DNA of 64,000 nucleotides from SAR324 cluster bacterium (lineage in GTDB: Bacteria > SAR324 > NAC60-12), in contig JADFZZ010000005.1 of assembly GCA_015232315.1 (NCBI GenBank), positions 124,001 to 188,000 on the forward strand, written 5' to 3'. Positions 1,107 to 31,877 of this stretch are shown in pieces. Within the stretch, counting starts at the first letter, position 1. The number at the start of each line of letters is the position of its first letter. A program made the position numbers and the translations under genes. Below the pieces are notes generated by a model. That model worked only from the letters and a program-made list of their open reading frames with translations, did no database searches and was not told where the DNA came from.

Positions 1107-2612
1107 TCAGGGGGATTCCAGCAATGCGGGTTCAATATCGCCATCGTAAAATTCGGCCTGACTCAAAGTTTCCGGAGTGTCAATCAGAATGACGATTTCA
1201 CCTTTTTCAGAAGTTCTTCCGATGCCTTCAACAAATTCATTGTATTGACGATTGATGCCTACCGGTTTTTCAAAAAGGTTGTAGGGAACATGATCTATCC
1301 CCAGAATCTGATCCACTTGAAATCCTGCTTTCTGATCATTCACTTCAATAATGATAATGCGTGTTTTTTCAGAGACAGGCAATGGTTGATTTCCAAAAAA
1401 AGTAGCCATTTCAATGATGGTGATCACATCGCCCCGGAGATTGATCACGCCTTTCACAAACGGTGGCGCCTTGGGAACCCTGACCATTTTCTGGATCGTT
1501 GTGATTTCATTGATTTCCAACACGCGAACCGCGAATGTTTCTTCTCCGACTTTGAATTTCAGAATGGAAATTATTTCGGAATGGGTTTCCTCTTCGGATG
1601 TTTCATCTTCAATGTCATTGAGTTCATCTCTAAGCTGCTGAAGATGTGCCTGTTCGTCTTCTGTAAGCAGGCTTGGCAGGTTCAACGCCATGATGACTTC
1701 AGTATGATCATTGCGTTTGATTTTGATAATACCATCCAGTTGTTCAGCACTGCGTCCACTGATATTGGGCGGAGGTGGCACAATATCATTTTCCAGGACA
1801 TGAAAGACTTCTGTGATTTGATCCACAATCAATCCCATCATCAATCGGTCATCATTGACAATCAGGACCGATGTGTCTTCCGTGTAAGCGATATCAGGGA
1901 GTAAAAAACGACGCCCAAGCCGGAGAATAGGCAATGCCTGGTCCCGTTGATAAAAAATGCCTTCAATTTTATCGGCCATTTCCGGCACCAGTGTGATTTT
2001 GGGCATTTCAATGATTTCTTCGACATAATTGATATCCAGCGCATAATAGTCCTGATTCAGTCTGAAACCGATCAGAATGCGTTCCCGATACGTTTTTGAA
2101 ACCTGAAGCGGATGAGCCAGGTTTGTTTTCTTGTCATCTTTGGGAATATGATTGTGCAGCACAAGTTCGGCAGGGTCGATCAGCAGATCAGTGTCAATCA
2201 GCAGAAGGACTCCTTCGTTCTGGCGAACTGATCCGAAAATGTAACTGGACTCTGAACGGCTGACAATGGCGGGTGGCGGTCGAACATCTTTGCTGTTGAT
2301 GGGCAACACCCGGGTCACAGCATCCACAATCATCCCTACTTTAACACCATTGACCGAGACAATCAGAATCCGTGTCATATTGGTGGGAACCGCGGCTGGC
2401 ATATGAAACCGGTTACGCAGATCAATCACGGAAATCACCTCACCACGAAGATTGATCATTCCTGAAAAATAGTAGGGAGCCCGGGGAACAGGGGTTATTT
2501 TGTCCGGTAAGGTAATAATCTCTTCCACAGCATGAATCAGAACACCAAAAATTTCCTGATTTACCATGAAGGTCACAAACTGTGAAATATCTGAACGTGG
2601 ATCCAGTTTCAT
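1107..2612 (-). CDS. Chemotaxis coupling protein with three CheW domains
   Basis: 501 residues containing three tandem CheW-type domains, roughly residues 10-145, 180-315 and 345-490. Each has the family signature of a short strand set followed by a G-hINLRG or equivalent turn: GMINLRGEVISVIDL in the first, a diverged GIFYQRDQALPILRL in the second, GVINLRGDVITIIEM in the third. Ordinary CheW has one domain of about 150-170 residues and links receptors to CheA. Triple-CheW proteins are known but uncommon and are thought to scaffold receptor arrays. No CheA or receptor is in view. The middle domain has lost the NLRG turn, so it may have a different contact role. An acidic stretch (DIEDETSEEE) separates domains two and three. 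Confidence 0.9.
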   Translation of the reverse strand: MKLDPRSDISQFVTFMVNQEIFGVLIHAVEEIITLPDKITPVPRAPYYFSGMINLRGEVISVIDLRNRFHMPAAVPTNMTRILIVSVNGVKVGMIVDAVTRVLPINSKDVRPPPAIVSRSESSYIFGSVRQNEGVLLLIDTDLLIDPAELVLHNHIPKDDKKTNLAHPLQVSKTYRERILIGFRLNQDYYALDINYVEEIIEMPKITLVPEMADKIEGIFYQRDQALPILRLGRRFLLPDIAYTEDTSVLIVNDDRLMMGLIVDQITEVFHVLENDIVPPPPNISGRSAEQLDGIIKIKRNDHTEVIMALNLPSLLTEDEQAHLQQLRDELNDIEDETSEEETHSEIISILKFKVGEETFAVRVLEINEITTIQKMVRVPKAPPFVKGVINLRGDVITIIEMATFFGNQPLPVSEKTRIIIIEVNDQKAGFQVDQILGIDHVPYNLFEKPVGINRQYNEFVEGIGRTSEKGEIVILIDTPETLSQAEFYDGDIEPALLESP

Positions 2613-25234: not shown

Positions 25235-26191
25235 ATGGACGCCTTACTTGAAATAAAAAATCTGCGGGTGCAATTTCCTGTGAAACATGGTCTCTGGGGC
25301 CATACCACTACAGCTTCCATCATCAACAGTCTGTCACTGGCTGTGAAACCCGGTGAGATTCTGGGGATTGTCGGAGAATCAGGATGCGGAAAATCGACGC
25401 TGGTGCGGACTATCATGAAAATCAATCCCATCACTTCCGGTCAGATTGCTTATCAGAGAACGCCTGTCGGCCAAATCAAAAACAGAGACTATTATCATCA
25501 TATCCAGATGATTTTTCAGGATCCGTTTTCTTCGTTGAATCCCAAAATGAAAATTGGCGCGCTGTTGGCAGAAATGCTGGAATTGCATCAACCGCAAGTA
25601 AACGTGCGTGAAGCTTCAGCCTTGTTGATGGATGAAGTGGGCTTGCCGGCAACCGCACTGGATCGCTACCCCCATGAATTCAGTGGTGGTCAGCGTCAAC
25701 GGATCGCAATCGCACGGGCACTGGCGGCAAAACCTTCGTTGCTGATTGCGGATGAGGCGGTATCAGCCCTGGATGTTTCCATACAAGCCCAGATTTTGAA
25801 TTTGTTGAAAGCCCTGCAGGAACGCTACCAACTCAGTTTGATTTTTATTTCGCACGATTTGAACATTGTGAACGCGTTTTGTGACAGAATTCTGGTGATG
25901 TATCTGGGGAAATTTGTAGAACACCTCCCCGGAAAATCACTGCACAGTGCGAAACATCCCTACAGCAAGGCACTGCTGAACAGTCTGCCAAACTGGCAGA
26001 AAAAAAATCAGCATCTGGAGTTGCTGTCAGGAGAGCCGCCCTCAGTGCTGGATATTCCTCCCGGGTGCCCGTTTTATTCCAGATGCAATGAGTCAATGGA
26101 ATCCTGCACCGCGGAATTTCCATCCCGGACTGAACTTGGGGCTCAGCATTGGGTTCACTGTCAACTCTATCAATCATCACACTGCAATTGA
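25235..26191 (+). CDS. Oligopeptide/dipeptide ABC transporter ATP-binding protein, OppF/DppF-like
   Basis: 318 residues. ABC ATPase with Walker A GESGCGKST, Q-loop MIFQDPFSSLNP, signature SGGQRQRIAIARAL, Walker B LLIADEAVSALD and H-loop SHDL. The C-terminal GCPFYSRC ... C extension with several Cys is the Fe-S or disulfide-type OppF/DppF tail. No partner ATPase, permeases or binding protein lie beside it, so it serves a transporter encoded elsewhere or is orphan. It ends 9 bp before the next signalling gene. Confidence 0.92.
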   Translation: MDALLEIKNLRVQFPVKHGLWGHTTTASIINSLSLAVKPGEILGIVGESGCGKSTLVRTIMKINPITSGQIAYQRTPVGQIKNRDYYHHIQMIFQDPFSSLNPKMKIGALLAEMLELHQPQVNVREASALLMDEVGLPATALDRYPHEFSGGQRQRIAIARALAAKPSLLIADEAVSALDVSIQAQILNLLKALQERYQLSLIFISHDLNIVNAFCDRILVMYLGKFVEHLPGKSLHSAKHPYSKALLNSLPNWQKKNQHLELLSGEPPSVLDIPPGCPFYSRCNESMESCTAEFPSRTELGAQHWVHCQLYQSSHCN

Positions 26192-26200
26192 TTTCGAACC

Positions 26201-28711
26201 ATGGCTCATATTCTCCTTGTTGATGATGACCCCCTCAGTATTCAATATTTGAAACTCACGCTCAGGGAATTGGGGCATACCTTCAATGCCACCCTCAAGC
26301 CCCGAAATGTGCTGTCCATGCTTTATCAGGAACATTTTGATCTGATTCTGATGGATATCCACATGCCGGAAATGAATGGTCCCGAGTTGCTGAAAGCTTT
26401 ACATAAAACTCCAGGATTCCACCGAATTCCCGTAATCATGATGACGGGAGACATGGAAGATCAGCTCATGGTGGATTGCTTTGAAAATGGAGCGGTGGAT
26501 TATTTGACCAAGCCTGTCAGCAATCTGGTCATGAGCGCACGTATCAAAGTGGCGATCAATACCAGCAAATACAAACTGCTTCTCGAAAACAATGTTCTGA
26601 AAAGCCATGAACAACTGCATTCCACTGAAACAGAGCTGAAACGGTTGCGTCAAGTGATCACCCAATGGGAAATGTTGCCGCATGAGGTACAGGATTCGAT
26701 GGAAAATCTGTTGCTACGGTTTGGCAACAATCTTGATTATCTGGATGAAGACCTGAAACAAACACTGGTCCGAATCACTGTCCGGTACGGGGAGATGTTG
26801 ACACAGTTCATCAACATCGCACGCACGCATCAACCTGAGAATGTTCAAATCAGGCAACACCGGGTCAGCCTGCTCAAGGATCTGCCCATTTTCAAACAAC
26901 TCAGTAATTTTGATCTGATCACCCTCACAGAAAAAATGGAGGTGTTGACACTGCCCGCAGACACGATGCTGTTGCAACAGGATGAACCTGCGGAAGCTGT
27001 GTTTTTCATTGAGAATGGCACCGTTGAAATTCTGGTCAATGATGAACTGGTTGCCCATCGACATGCGGGGAGTTCTATTGGTGAGATGTCCTGCCTGAGA
27101 GGCGAACTCAAGGCCTCGGCGACTGTTCGGACATTGACGTCCTGCGTTGTGTTGAGAATCTCGCGGGAGGCGTTTATGGAGATTGTCAATCGGCTTCCCC
27201 AGTTGTGGCAAAACGTATTTCAGGACATGACCAACCGGTTCAATGCGGTCAATCAACGCTTGAGCGAAGTCTTTCAGCACACACCTCAAGGTATGGTCAA
27301 AGTGGATCAGAAGGGCTTGATGACCAACGAATTTTCAACCAGAGCGACCGATTATCTGGGTTCCAGACACCTGATGGGAAAACCTGCAACGGCCTCCTTG
27401 TTTCCTGACAATAAACAGTTACAAGAATTGTGGAAGGATGCGTATCATCTGTTTTTTGAAGATACCCGTATGGAGTTTGATATGCTGACTGAGGTTCTGC
27501 CCAGAGAAACGACGATCCAATCCAGTCATGGAACCACACGGGAAATCAAACTTTCCTATTATCCCTGCCGGGATGCGAATGCTCAACTGGTAGCGATTGA
27601 TATTGCGCTGGAAGATGTGAGCCGTGCCAATCAGATGTCACGTCAAAGCAAACAACTGATGATAGAAAAACAGGTTGTGGCCAGGATTTATGATGACCCT
27701 GAGTCTTATCTCACCATGCTTGATCTTGCGGATTCTGTTTTACAAAGTGTGAATCACTTTGAACAGATCATAGATCAGGTAAAACCTCTGGAAATTCAGG
27801 AAACAGGGACTGAAACCATGAGAGTTCTGCACACGTTGAAGGGCATGAGCGGATTATTCCTGCTGGATGAATTGAAAGACGCGGTGCATGTTATGGAAAC
27901 CGAAATCATGTTGATTCGTGAGGAGGAAAATCCGGAATCCATTGACAAACAGGAAGGATGGGACCGCAAAAAAGCAAATCTGGAATATCAGATCCGTCAT
28001 GCGCATGAACTGTTTGACAATATCAATCCCGAGCTACGCGAACGCCTCATGGGCGTGGTGCTGGTCAGGGAGAACTTTGAACAATTGAAACATTGCCTGC
28101 TCAGTGGGGATACTGAAACCATGCGGAAAATCCTGTTTGCGGCAGAACAAGTTCCCGCATTGCGACTGGCCCAGCACTGGCCTAAAGAAATATGCCGTTT
28201 GGGAAAACAGACAGGAAAACAGATCAAATTCAAACTGGAAGGTGAACGACTGCTGATTCGCCGAAACCTGTTTGATGAACTGGAGGGACCGCTGGTTCAT
28301 TTGCTGAGAAATAGCGTGGATCATGGAATTGAACTCCCGGAAGAACGGTTACAGAAGGGAAAAAATGAATGGGGTTACATTCTGTTCAAGGTCAGCCGTG
28401 AGCAGAATAATATGGTTCTGGAAGTGCAGGATGACGGACGTGGCATTGAGCTGGATAAAATTGTCGAAAAAGCCCGAAAAACAAGAGCACTGGATCAGTC
28501 AGTCATTGAACAGTTTATTCTGGAAAATACGGCCTGGAAGATATTGTTTCTCCCGGGATTCAGCACAGCCTCCACCCTGACGGAGGTTTCCGGACGCGGT
28601 GTGGGTTTAAGCAGCGTTGAGGACATGGTGGCAAGGAATAACGGCATTCTGCAAATGGAAACTGAACCAGGTCAGGGAACCAAATTCCGCTTGGTAATTC
28701 CACTGACCTGA
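26201..28711 (+). CDS. Multi-domain signalling protein: receiver, cNMP-binding, PAS-like, Hpt and CheA-type ATPase
   Basis: 836 residues. Seen in order: receiver domain 1-125 (ILLVDDDP, D52 in LILMDIHMPEMNG, K in YLTKPV), helical linker, cyclic-nucleotide-binding fold about 228-345 (LPIFKQLSNFDLITLTEKME, GSSIGEMSCLRGELKASATVR), PAS-like region about 365-480, Hpt-like helix bundle with H544 in HTLKGMSGLF, and a CheA-type HATPase (LVHLLRNSVDHGIELPEERL, DDGRGI, LFLPGFSTASTLTEVSGRGVGL). CheA P3 dimerisation and the CheW-like P5 domain are absent. A kinase that senses phosphorylation and perhaps a nucleotide is likely. Partners are unknown; an unrecognised gene follows 69 bp downstream. Confidence 0.88.
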   Translation: MAHILLVDDDPLSIQYLKLTLRELGHTFNATLKPRNVLSMLYQEHFDLILMDIHMPEMNGPELLKALHKTPGFHRIPVIMMTGDMEDQLMVDCFENGAVDYLTKPVSNLVMSARIKVAINTSKYKLLLENNVLKSHEQLHSTETELKRLRQVITQWEMLPHEVQDSMENLLLRFGNNLDYLDEDLKQTLVRITVRYGEMLTQFINIARTHQPENVQIRQHRVSLLKDLPIFKQLSNFDLITLTEKMEVLTLPADTMLLQQDEPAEAVFFIENGTVEILVNDELVAHRHAGSSIGEMSCLRGELKASATVRTLTSCVVLRISREAFMEIVNRLPQLWQNVFQDMTNRFNAVNQRLSEVFQHTPQGMVKVDQKGLMTNEFSTRATDYLGSRHLMGKPATASLFPDNKQLQELWKDAYHLFFEDTRMEFDMLTEVLPRETTIQSSHGTTREIKLSYYPCRDANAQLVAIDIALEDVSRANQMSRQSKQLMIEKQVVARIYDDPESYLTMLDLADSVLQSVNHFEQIIDQVKPLEIQETGTETMRVLHTLKGMSGLFLLDELKDAVHVMETEIMLIREEENPESIDKQEGWDRKKANLEYQIRHAHELFDNINPELRERLMGVVLVRENFEQLKHCLLSGDTETMRKILFAAEQVPALRLAQHWPKEICRLGKQTGKQIKFKLEGERLLIRRNLFDELEGPLVHLLRNSVDHGIELPEERLQKGKNEWGYILFKVSREQNNMVLEVQDDGRGIELDKIVEKARKTRALDQSVIEQFILENTAWKILFLPGFSTASTLTEVSGRGVGLSSVEDMVARNNGILQMETEPGQGTKFRLVIPLT

Positions 28712-28780
28712 GGTCAGGTACCGGACATCTTTTTTTCAGAGTTTGATCTCTGAGTTTTCCTGTTTTTTGAAGGTATGATT

Positions 28781-29593
28781 ATGGGCGTCTCTGCATCTTC
28801 AATAAAAATTTCATCAAAAACTGACTCGATCGCGTCAGGACTACAGCCTTCATATCAGGTCATTCCTGAGATCAAACCAGAAGATTTTCCTCCGATTGAC
28901 AGAGTAAAAGCCGAGGTTGGTGCTGAACTCAGAGGGGTTTATGAGGAAGTCTCCAATTTTTTTATCACGCTCACAATGCTCGACGCGCCTGATGAACAAA
29001 TGCTCACGATCCTTGAACTTTCCGGGATTGTTACTCTGAACCCCTGCTATCTGTCATTGCTGTATACCATACAGAGCACATGCAAAGACAGAATACCCAA
29101 AAGCAGTGGGGCTTTTCAAAAAATTCTGTTTCAGGGAATGTATCTGTTCGTCAATGCTGAACTGCAAAAAAATGAAGAAAAAATCAGGGAAACTCACAAA
29201 AAATTGACGTATCTGAATTCAAAAGTTTCTTCGATTCGAGCTTTTATCGGACAAAGCAAAGACATGCTGATACGGTATTTCAACGATACGACTGTGATTT
29301 CGAGTGAAAATCTTCAGCAAGGAAAACAGCGCATTGAGGTGCTGAATCAATTGCTGAAAACGTTACCGAACTATCAGAAAGTTCTGGATAAAGTGAATAC
29401 ACTCGAATCCAAAGCACGGAAAGTCACGGTCATCAGTGAACTCCTGATTTCCTTCCTCACTGTTGAGGAAACCATGCTGCATAAAGGCCAGACAGGACAT
29501 ATCAATGACTACACCGTTCAAAGTATGGACCGGATAACCAGCATGCTTCGTATTCTAAAAACCTATCACTCGTCAGCGTCATCTGTTAATTGA
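28781..29593 (+). CDS. Unknown helical protein downstream of the multi-domain kinase
   Basis: 270 residues from the chosen ATG, which has AAGG 7 bp upstream; an ATG two codons earlier is too close to that site. Mostly alpha-helical by composition, with a coiled-coil-like stretch (AELQKNEEKIRETHKKLTYL). No signal peptide, membrane segment or catalytic motif is seen, and I recognise no family. Same strand and close spacing to the 836-residue signalling protein suggest a shared operon and perhaps a common task. Confidence 0.72.
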   Translation: MGVSASSIKISSKTDSIASGLQPSYQVIPEIKPEDFPPIDRVKAEVGAELRGVYEEVSNFFITLTMLDAPDEQMLTILELSGIVTLNPCYLSLLYTIQSTCKDRIPKSSGAFQKILFQGMYLFVNAELQKNEEKIRETHKKLTYLNSKVSSIRAFIGQSKDMLIRYFNDTTVISSENLQQGKQRIEVLNQLLKTLPNYQKVLDKVNTLESKARKVTVISELLISFLTVEETMLHKGQTGHINDYTVQSMDRITSMLRILKTYHSSASSVN

Positions 29594-30633: not shown

Positions 30634-31038
30634 ATGGCTCGTCATATTGAAAAATCAGAGCAGGAATGGAAACAGATTTTGACACCTGAACAGTTTCAGA
30701 TCTGTCGCAAAAAAGGAACAGAGCGAGCCTTTACCGGCCAATACCATGCTCACAAACATGCCGGGATCTACCAATGTGTGTGTTGTGGAACGTCTCTGTT
30801 TGACTCAAACGCAAAATTTGATTCCGGGACCGGGTGGCCCAGTTTCTGGAAGCCGTATAATTCAACAAATGTCGAAACCGAAACAGACCGAAGCTGGTTC
30901 ATGGTCAGGACGGAGGTCCTGTGCGCTGTTTGTGGAGCGCATCTGGGACACGTCTTTGAGGATGGTCCAGCGCCTACTGGAAAACGTTATTGCATCAATT
31001 CAGTTTCACTTAATTTTGTTTCAGAGGGAAATTCATGA
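30634..31038 (+). CDS. msrB: Peptide-methionine (R)-S-oxide reductase MsrB
   Basis: 134 residues. Repairs methionine-R-sulfoxide in proteins. Seen: the two zinc-binding pairs CVCC and CAVC, the substrate loop [33 protein letters not shown] with the catalytic Cys. AGGAGG lies 6 bp before the ATG, a strong ribosome site. The stop overlaps the start of a receiver-cNMP gene (ATGA), so the two are co-translated. The 210 bp upstream should hold its promoter but I see no clear consensus. Confidence 0.96.
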
Positions 31039-31877
31039 GCCAAACTCAATCAAAAATTCTGCTGGTAACCCAGGATCAGGAAGCCATTAAACTACTAACC
31101 AGTACCTTTAAGGCCATTAGAACATTTCAGGTTCTTACCGCCTCCAATCCGGAAAAAGGCATAGAATTCATGAAGGCCCATGAATCTTCCATTGTACTGC
31201 TGATTGTCGATGAATTTGGCGGATTGCAGTTCAACATGCTGATTGAAAAATGGGTTGAGCACAAACAATGGTTTAAAATCCCACTGATTTTGCTCACCGA
31301 AGAAGTCACTTTTGCCAAACTCAAGCAATGTAAGGAGCATTACATTCATCATGTGTTGGTCAAGCCTCTGGAAAAACAGAACACCTTTGAAAAACTGAAA
31401 GCGGTTTTGAAGGTAGAACAAAATCTTTCCAATGAATTTATTGAAAAAATCAGAAACGCTGAATTTTTCATGAATTTCAAACTGGATGAAATCAAAAAAC
31501 TGATGGAACTGGGATTTGTAAAAAAGTTTGAAGCAGGTCAAGTGTTGATCAGAGAAGAGGGAACCATTGACAAACTGGGCATTATTCTCGAAGGAGAAGT
31601 TGGCGTTTACCGTATTCATCCGTCTTATGAACCCCTGTTGCTGACAGAGTTGAAGGCCTGCGCACTGCTGGGCGAAACAACCCTGCTGTCACGCGAACGC
31701 TCCCGTACCAGAGTGGTGAGCCACACCCCTTCGCTGGTGTTCATGCTCCCCTATTTTGCGATTCAGTTGTTTCCCGATGAATTGAGAGAGAGGCTGTTGA
31801 GAGTGATAATCCGGACACTCACCCAGAAATTACGAGCGCTCAGTCAGGATATGGCGCCATTCCCTGACGAATCATGA
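31035..31877 (+). CDS. Receiver-like and cyclic-nucleotide-binding domain protein
   Basis: 280 residues: a receiver-like domain at 1-125 ([10 protein letters not shown], Asp in [11 protein letters not shown] in LILLTEEV, K in VLVKPLEK) whose acidic pocket is only partly kept, followed by a cNMP-binding fold at about 140-255 ([53 protein letters not shown]). No DNA-binding domain, so not a Crp-type transcription factor. The receiver plus cNMP combination is also found inside the 836-residue protein at 26201-28711. Overlaps msrB by 4 bp. Confidence 0.8.

Follow-up and report, generated by a model that had tools for sequence, protein, structure and literature searches.

According to a survey of 13,673 CheA sequences (Berry et al. 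2023; PMC10782961), the core of CheA consists of the P1, P3, P4 and P5 domains, and CheW is present in 100% of the sequences; the same source describes CheA as lacking a sensor domain and depending on dedicated chemoreceptors. A 64,000-nucleotide stretch of the genome of a SAR324 cluster bacterium (contig JADFZZ010000005.1, positions 124,001 to 188,000; the whole stretch is called the window here, and positions are counted from its first nucleotide) encodes an 836-residue kinase (26201..28711, forward strand) in which Pfam, NCBIfam and PDB matches, together with relatives in the same genome, define the order receiver (REC), helical segment, cyclic-nucleotide-binding-type domain (CNBD), PAS-like region, Hpt and CheA-type P4. 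Because P5 is absent, the kinase is not a CheA by the definition of the survey, and it is grouped here with the P5-less Hpt-P4 sensor kinases, whose features it shows: Hpt followed by P4, no CheW, and input domains of its own. It is considered moderately probable that the protein is a cytoplasmic P5-less CheA-type sensor kinase in which an input block of REC, CNBD fold and PAS governs Hpt-P4, with REC serving as a switch set in trans and the CNBD no longer binding nucleotide in the usual manner. The foremost new finding is that a pocket arginine of the CNBD is lost across the whole family, together with the presence of one input cassette before three different output blocks: the family has kept a classical second-messenger fold and lost the residue that holds the ligand.

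The matches of the kinase to REC, cNMP_binding, Hpt and HATPase_c each exceed the curated Pfam cut-off. REC spans residues 4-114 (26210..26542, +; PF00072, 4.1e-25) with a complete set of site residues, namely the acidic cluster D8-D10, the phospho-acceptor D52, T82 and K104. The CNBD fold spans residues 250-330 (26948..27190, +; PF00027, 9.2e-16), and Hpt spans residues 532-585 (27794..27955, +; PF01627, 1.3e-6), with the phospho-acceptor His544 (codon 27830-27832) in an HTLKG motif. P4 (28148..28708, +; HATPase_c at residues 697-835, 6.8e-14) has the motifs HLLRNSVDHG, DDGRGI, GFSTA and GRGVGL, and is of the CheA type according to the NCBIfam CheA model (residues 651-836, 3.3e-50; far under the whole-protein cut-off of that model, as expected with a part match) and according to the PDB, where the best matches are CheA chains (4xiv over residues 623-836, 8e-41). 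The last residue of P4 is the end of the chain, and neither a CheW match nor a HisKA (DHp) domain was found in the kinase with Pfam. The initial annotation, which was made from the letters of the window, had recognized the receiver, cNMP, Hpt and CheA-type ATPase domains, the phosphorylatable histidine at position 544 and the missing CheW-like P5, and all of these stand, including the cNMP domain, which does match in a profile search. Its PAS-like domain fared less well: Pfam finds no PAS match in the kinase itself, and the PAS-like region (about residues 366-476, 27296..27628, +, approximate boundaries) derives from weak PAS_9 matches in aligned relatives, two of them in the same genome and below the curated cut-off (8.9e-4 and 4e-3); at E 0.01, PAS_9 matches 4 of the 31 aligned family members described below. 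Pfam also finds no P3 in the window kinase. The 63-residue linker between Hpt and P4 (27962..28150, +) is nearly constant in length (62-64 residues in 27 of the 31 members; the remainder are 82, 82 and 82 residues and one kinase-less row), and is possibly a divergent P3-like hairpin. The PDB match to CheA P3-P4 begins at residue 623, and a single hhalign comparison of the linker (29 of the 31 rows) with 12 CheA-type P3 regions gave a probability of 26% (E 1.3e-4).

The GatA protein of the genome in which the kinase resides (G000; 5.25 Mb in 88 contigs) points to a place within SAR324, close to family level: it shares 60% identity with GatA of a genome of the same family (G002), 55% with that of a SAR324 cluster bacterium (via L044), 48% with that of a genome of the same order (G015) and no more than 49% with GatA of the other named genomes, while two of the 15 genomes compared gave no match. 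G000 has five relatives of the kinase. Three possess both REC and the kinase half (C3:132357, 45% identical; C30:37674, 49%; C12:79794, 41%), a fourth has the kinase half without REC (C3:16110, 39%), and the fifth (C30:35985 = L002:6357-9509), which directly adjoins the C30:37674 copy, retains REC-CNBD-PAS followed by HisKA-HATPase-REC-Hpt. Among 52 SAR324 genomes the family comprises 32 matching places in 16 genomes, of which 31 were aligned, the HisKA-swapped one being left out. Pfam finds HATPase in 30 of the aligned members, cNMP in 29, Hpt in 29, REC in 5 and CheW in 1, and the catalytic residues are conserved (H544 in 29 of 31, N704 in 30 of 31). The CNBD-PAS-Hpt-P4 kinase occurs in 15 of the 52 genomes if rows in which Pfam misses one domain are counted from the alignment; the REC-fused form is present in two of the 52, the genome of the window and G010 (L093). 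The CheW match belongs to a CNBD-PAS-CheW fusion with no kinase in genome G033 (L106:979-2538, minus strand; CNBD 7.8e-19, CheW 1.5e-29). A phylogenetic tree of CNBD-PAS sequences (32 rows; starred, 12 of 29 inner branches) unites the window copy with the HisKA-swapped copy and with the other three kinases of its genome that bear REC, in a single supported clade (95/94); the REC-bearing protein of G010 falls outside it, and the CNBD-PAS-CheW fusion sits on a very long branch (2.23) of unsure placement. Read in this way, the tree suggests a lineage expansion with one gain of REC and, where PAS ends, one exchange of the kinase half, and for G010 either a separate gain of REC or losses elsewhere. 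More tentatively, and with the balance tilted towards doubt, the helix-CNBD-PAS cassette with its lost nucleotide pocket may be an interchangeable input plug for at least three outputs: Hpt-P4 (30 of 31 rows), HisKA-HATPase-REC-Hpt (L002:6357-9509) and CheW (L106). If so, one type of internal signal could reach two-component phosphorelays as well as chemosensory arrays, and through an added REC another kinase could tune the cassette. Two loci in genome G005 are of separate interest: at L145:5841-9433 (minus strand) an MCP gene overlaps by 4 bp the start of a P5-less kinase of the CNBD type, though the kinase has no domain for coupling to an MCP array, and a family member at L092:1465-3558 (plus strand) is a likely pseudo-kinase in which Tyr replaces the Hpt His and the G2 box is altered.

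Beyond SAR324, a profile (A3) made with 19 of the 31 aligned members was searched against 395, 296 and 398 genomes (1089 in total) of the phyla to which a Desulfamplus, a Treponema and a Caulobacter genome belong. At E 1e-25 it gave 1, 4 and 1 matches, respectively, all of which begin at profile position 92 or later, past most of the CNBD; the five that were scanned with Pfam (L121, L122, L123, L125 and L152; L124 was left out) have Hpt and HATPase and no CNBD. No CNBD-bearing match was found among the 1089 sampled genomes of three other phyla, a result of limited sensitivity that does not prove absence, since scoring covered the best 3-5 candidates in each genome. A scan of genome contigs found, among the best 80 loci, no single open reading frame (ORF) whose match extends beyond 284 of the query's 836 residues, and those of the 80 that span both ends of the query are CheA or hybrid kinases with separate receivers. 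Among the literature matches listed, mostly open-access, no title or abstract opening describes a REC-CNBD-Hpt-P4 kinase; no claim is made that it is unpublished.

The nearest solved relatives of the CNBD are the regulatory domains of PKG and PKA, and a pocket Glu and a phosphate-binding Arg have been called essential to the binding of cyclic AMP (cAMP) in the text of one study (PMC10354285). The pocket Glu position is occupied by Glu in 25 and by Asp in 6 of the 31 members (E295 in the window kinase). The Arg column (position 305) contains Ala in 19 members, the window kinase among them, Ser in 8, Val in 2, Ile in 2 and Arg in none; at the preceding column, 304, one member has Arg and three have Lys, the window kinase being one of the three. 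In phmmer alignments with a Plasmodium-type PKG, whose four aligned domains all have Arg at or beside column 305, the PKG Arg stands opposite Ala305 (domain 1), Lys304 (domains 2 and 4) or Ser306 (domain 3), so that one sequence alone is insufficient to fix the register. In six of the 31 members the loop is shorter by one residue and so equals that of PKG domains 1 and 4 in length; these six have Val, Ile, Ile, Ala, Ala and Val opposite the PKG Arg, which assigns the Arg register to column 305. Another protein with both REC and CNBD is encoded 1.4 kb downstream in the window (31035-31877, plus strand; 280 residues); its receiver falls under the Pfam cut-off, and it has Arg residues near the pocket position.

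From the domains, catalytic motifs, loss of the arginine, absence of P5 and exchange of the output block seen in these sequences, the direction of phosphate flow, the roles of REC and the CNBD and the target may be predicted as follows. The input block of REC, CNBD fold and PAS would control the C-terminal Hpt-P4 block; P4 would phosphorylate His544 of Hpt with ATP; the phosphate would then pass to a separately encoded receiver protein; REC would be mainly a switch set by another kinase, like REC1 of CheS3; and the CNBD, having lost the usual hold on cyclic nucleotides, would serve as a structural or protein-contact module or as the binder of another ligand, probably responding to something other than a cyclic nucleotide. 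Several observations weigh against this reading. REC is intact in the window kinase, so that transfer from H544 to D52 could occur; no cognate response regulator was found; and AlphaFold2 models made from the single sequence were of low quality (mean pLDDT 40.1 and 33.3) and give no fold support for the pocket or for a P3-like dimer. The pocket Glu is retained, Lys304, which adjoins the Arg column and stands opposite the PKG Arg in two domains, could partly substitute in the window copy, and among the 45 class III cyclase domains of the genome are two that lie about 4 kb or less from two relatives; for two domains that deviate from the pocket consensus, the study cited above states that nucleotide binding could be neither predicted nor excluded (PMC10354285). 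Glu295, Lys304 and the abundance of cyclases, together with the significant CNBD match and the kinship with PKG and PKA regulatory domains, would favor a kinase whose P4 is switched by cAMP or cyclic GMP bound to the CNBD, an explanation that is nevertheless judged quite improbable, with Ala at the Arg column here, no Arg in any of the 31 members, Glu and Arg both called essential (PMC10354285), and none of the 45 listed cyclase domains on the contig of the kinase (C5). A link to neighboring cyclases was examined and rejected: class III cyclase domains, one of them marginal, lie less than 4 kb from two of the five CNBD-kinase genes, and 45 domains in 5.25 Mb would give about p 0.08 (hand arithmetic, with a 5 kb window on each side). 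Since none of the 31 members has Arg at the pocket column, the nucleotide control that the initial annotation had proposed is unsupported, though not disproved.

The initial annotation had also suggested that a phospho-signal could be accepted and passed on within one chain. In such an internal phosphorelay or phosphate sink, phosphate from H544 would go to D52 of the same protein, in the manner of CheA hybrids to which a CheY-like domain is fused, and REC would dissipate or relay it, which the intact state of both REC and Hpt would permit. The CheA survey describes fused receivers as often being phosphate sinks, with H. pylori CheA as an example, and places REC N-terminally in several CheA (PMC10782961); fused REC of R. 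centenum CheA3 is another reported sink (PMC3868531). Most of the hybrids in the survey have REC at the C-terminus, however (PMC10782961), and Pfam finds no REC in 26 of the 31 family members. The HisKA-swapped relative retains its N-terminal REC beside a C-terminal REC and Hpt of its own, and although the REC site residues are intact in four of the five REC-CNBD copies of the genome, the C12 copy, which has intact Hpt and ATPase motifs, shows H, T, E and A in place of D9, D10, D52 and T82. Because most members lack REC and the swapped copy has its own C-terminal REC-Hpt, REC appears likelier to be an input than a relay or an acceptor of phosphate from its own kinase, and the internal route, although feasible, is considered rather unlikely. 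A precedent for a receiver set in trans is REC1 of CheS3, which is reported to receive its phosphate from CheA3, not from the CheS3 kinase, and to control the latter (PMC3868531). One relative (L003:8768-11323, minus strand) has a receiver with Glu at the phospho-Asp position and a partly lost acidic cluster. A further alternative is a two-gene system in which the product of the next gene, a 272-residue ORF (28775..29593, +) with no Pfam family above cut-off, would be a dedicated partner of the kinase (an anti-kinase, a phosphatase or a target). The two genes are on the same strand, 63 bp apart, but the ORF is single-copy, with no further match in the genome up to E 10, whereas four relatives of the kinase have the Hpt-P4 half; its one clear homologue in the 52 SAR324 genomes (G010, 26% over 239 residues, 3.4e-14) has no CNBD or CheA-type P4 within 14 kb on one side, the other side lying about 200 bp from a contig end, where adjacency cannot be judged; and a weak terminator-like hairpin with a T-run (28735..28754, +; 6 such sites in the region versus 4.8 +/- 1.9 in shuffled sequences) separates the genes. 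Such a partnership is therefore thought highly improbable, and the downstream gene does not look like a conserved partner of the kinase. The initial annotation had placed a gene 3' of the kinase, with a size (270 residues) and a gap (69 bp) that differ slightly from those found here; the co-occurrence that it proposed to check did not appear on the readable side of the G010 homologue.

That homologue adjoins a divergent gene, and at least one HisKA hybrid kinase lies within the 14 kb that were read. Three further matches to the downstream ORF in the 52 SAR324 genomes (E 0.06-0.1) were taken as noise, as were its weak matches to Pfam (E 0.016 to 0.52), to NCBIfam (0.0095 and 0.022) and to a Rap phosphatase (E 0.25), and an Erf4 match of the G010 homologue (0.0025, below cut-off). 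Upstream of the kinase, at a distance of 9 bp, is a gene for an OppF-like ABC ATPase (25235..26191, +). It was rejected as a conserved partner, its four nearest relatives (55-60%) having no large kinase ORF within 1.5 kb on each side. The CNBD-PAS-CheW gene in G033 likewise follows a gene for an ABC ATPase of this type, but that ATPase is 41% identical to the one in the window and 48% identical to another paralogue.

The genome has at least 40 CheA-type P4 places by hand count, 13 with CheW in the same frame and 27 without. The latter are the five of the CNBD family and 22 others, all of which retain the H, K and G of Hpt; among these 22, Pfam finds HATPase in 22, Hpt in 20, 7TMR-DISM in 7, REC in 5, GAF in 4, and the CNBD in none. 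Most of the scanned CheW-less CheA-type kinases of the genome thus have input domains of their own, and with them the regulation of P4 would become testable outside chemoreceptor arrays. One P5-less CheA-type kinase attains 1999 residues (L134:2452-8451, minus strand) and is probably the member with the Pfam matches to a Ser/Thr kinase and to AAA_16, each of which occurs in one of the 22. The same 5.25 Mb contain 39 CheW domains, 45 class III cyclase domains and, as stated, at least 40 CheA-type ATPase places; within the window, a 501-residue protein (1107-2612, minus strand) consists of three tandem CheW domains, and a second triple-CheW frame is present on contig C59.

Compared with receptors of cAMP and cyclic GMP (CRP, PKA-R and PKG), the window kinase shares the CNBD fold and the pocket Glu, whereas their pocket Arg is without a counterpart in 31 of 31 members of the kinase family. 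CheS3 differs in having a kinase block of another type, and it is not known to have a CNBD. What the two may have in common is the setting of an N-terminal REC in trans, described for CheS3 as a hybrid kinase of Rhodospirillum centenum (PMC3868531) and proposed for the window kinase by analogy. With CheA the window kinase shares an Hpt with HxxKG and the CheA-type P4 catalytic domain; the P5/CheW domain of CheA is absent, P3 was not detected, and the N-terminal REC-CNBD-PAS input of the window kinase stands in contrast to CheA. The same Hpt-P4 output block is found in the other P5-less Hpt-P4 sensor kinases, which are represented by single examples in sampled genomes of the Desulfamplus, Treponema and Caulobacter phyla, and which receive their input through 7TMR-DISM, GAF, PAS or REC domains (CHASE4 or HAMP outside SAR324). 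The window kinase is a variant of these already known P5-less CheA-type sensor kinases, unusual in the order of its domains.

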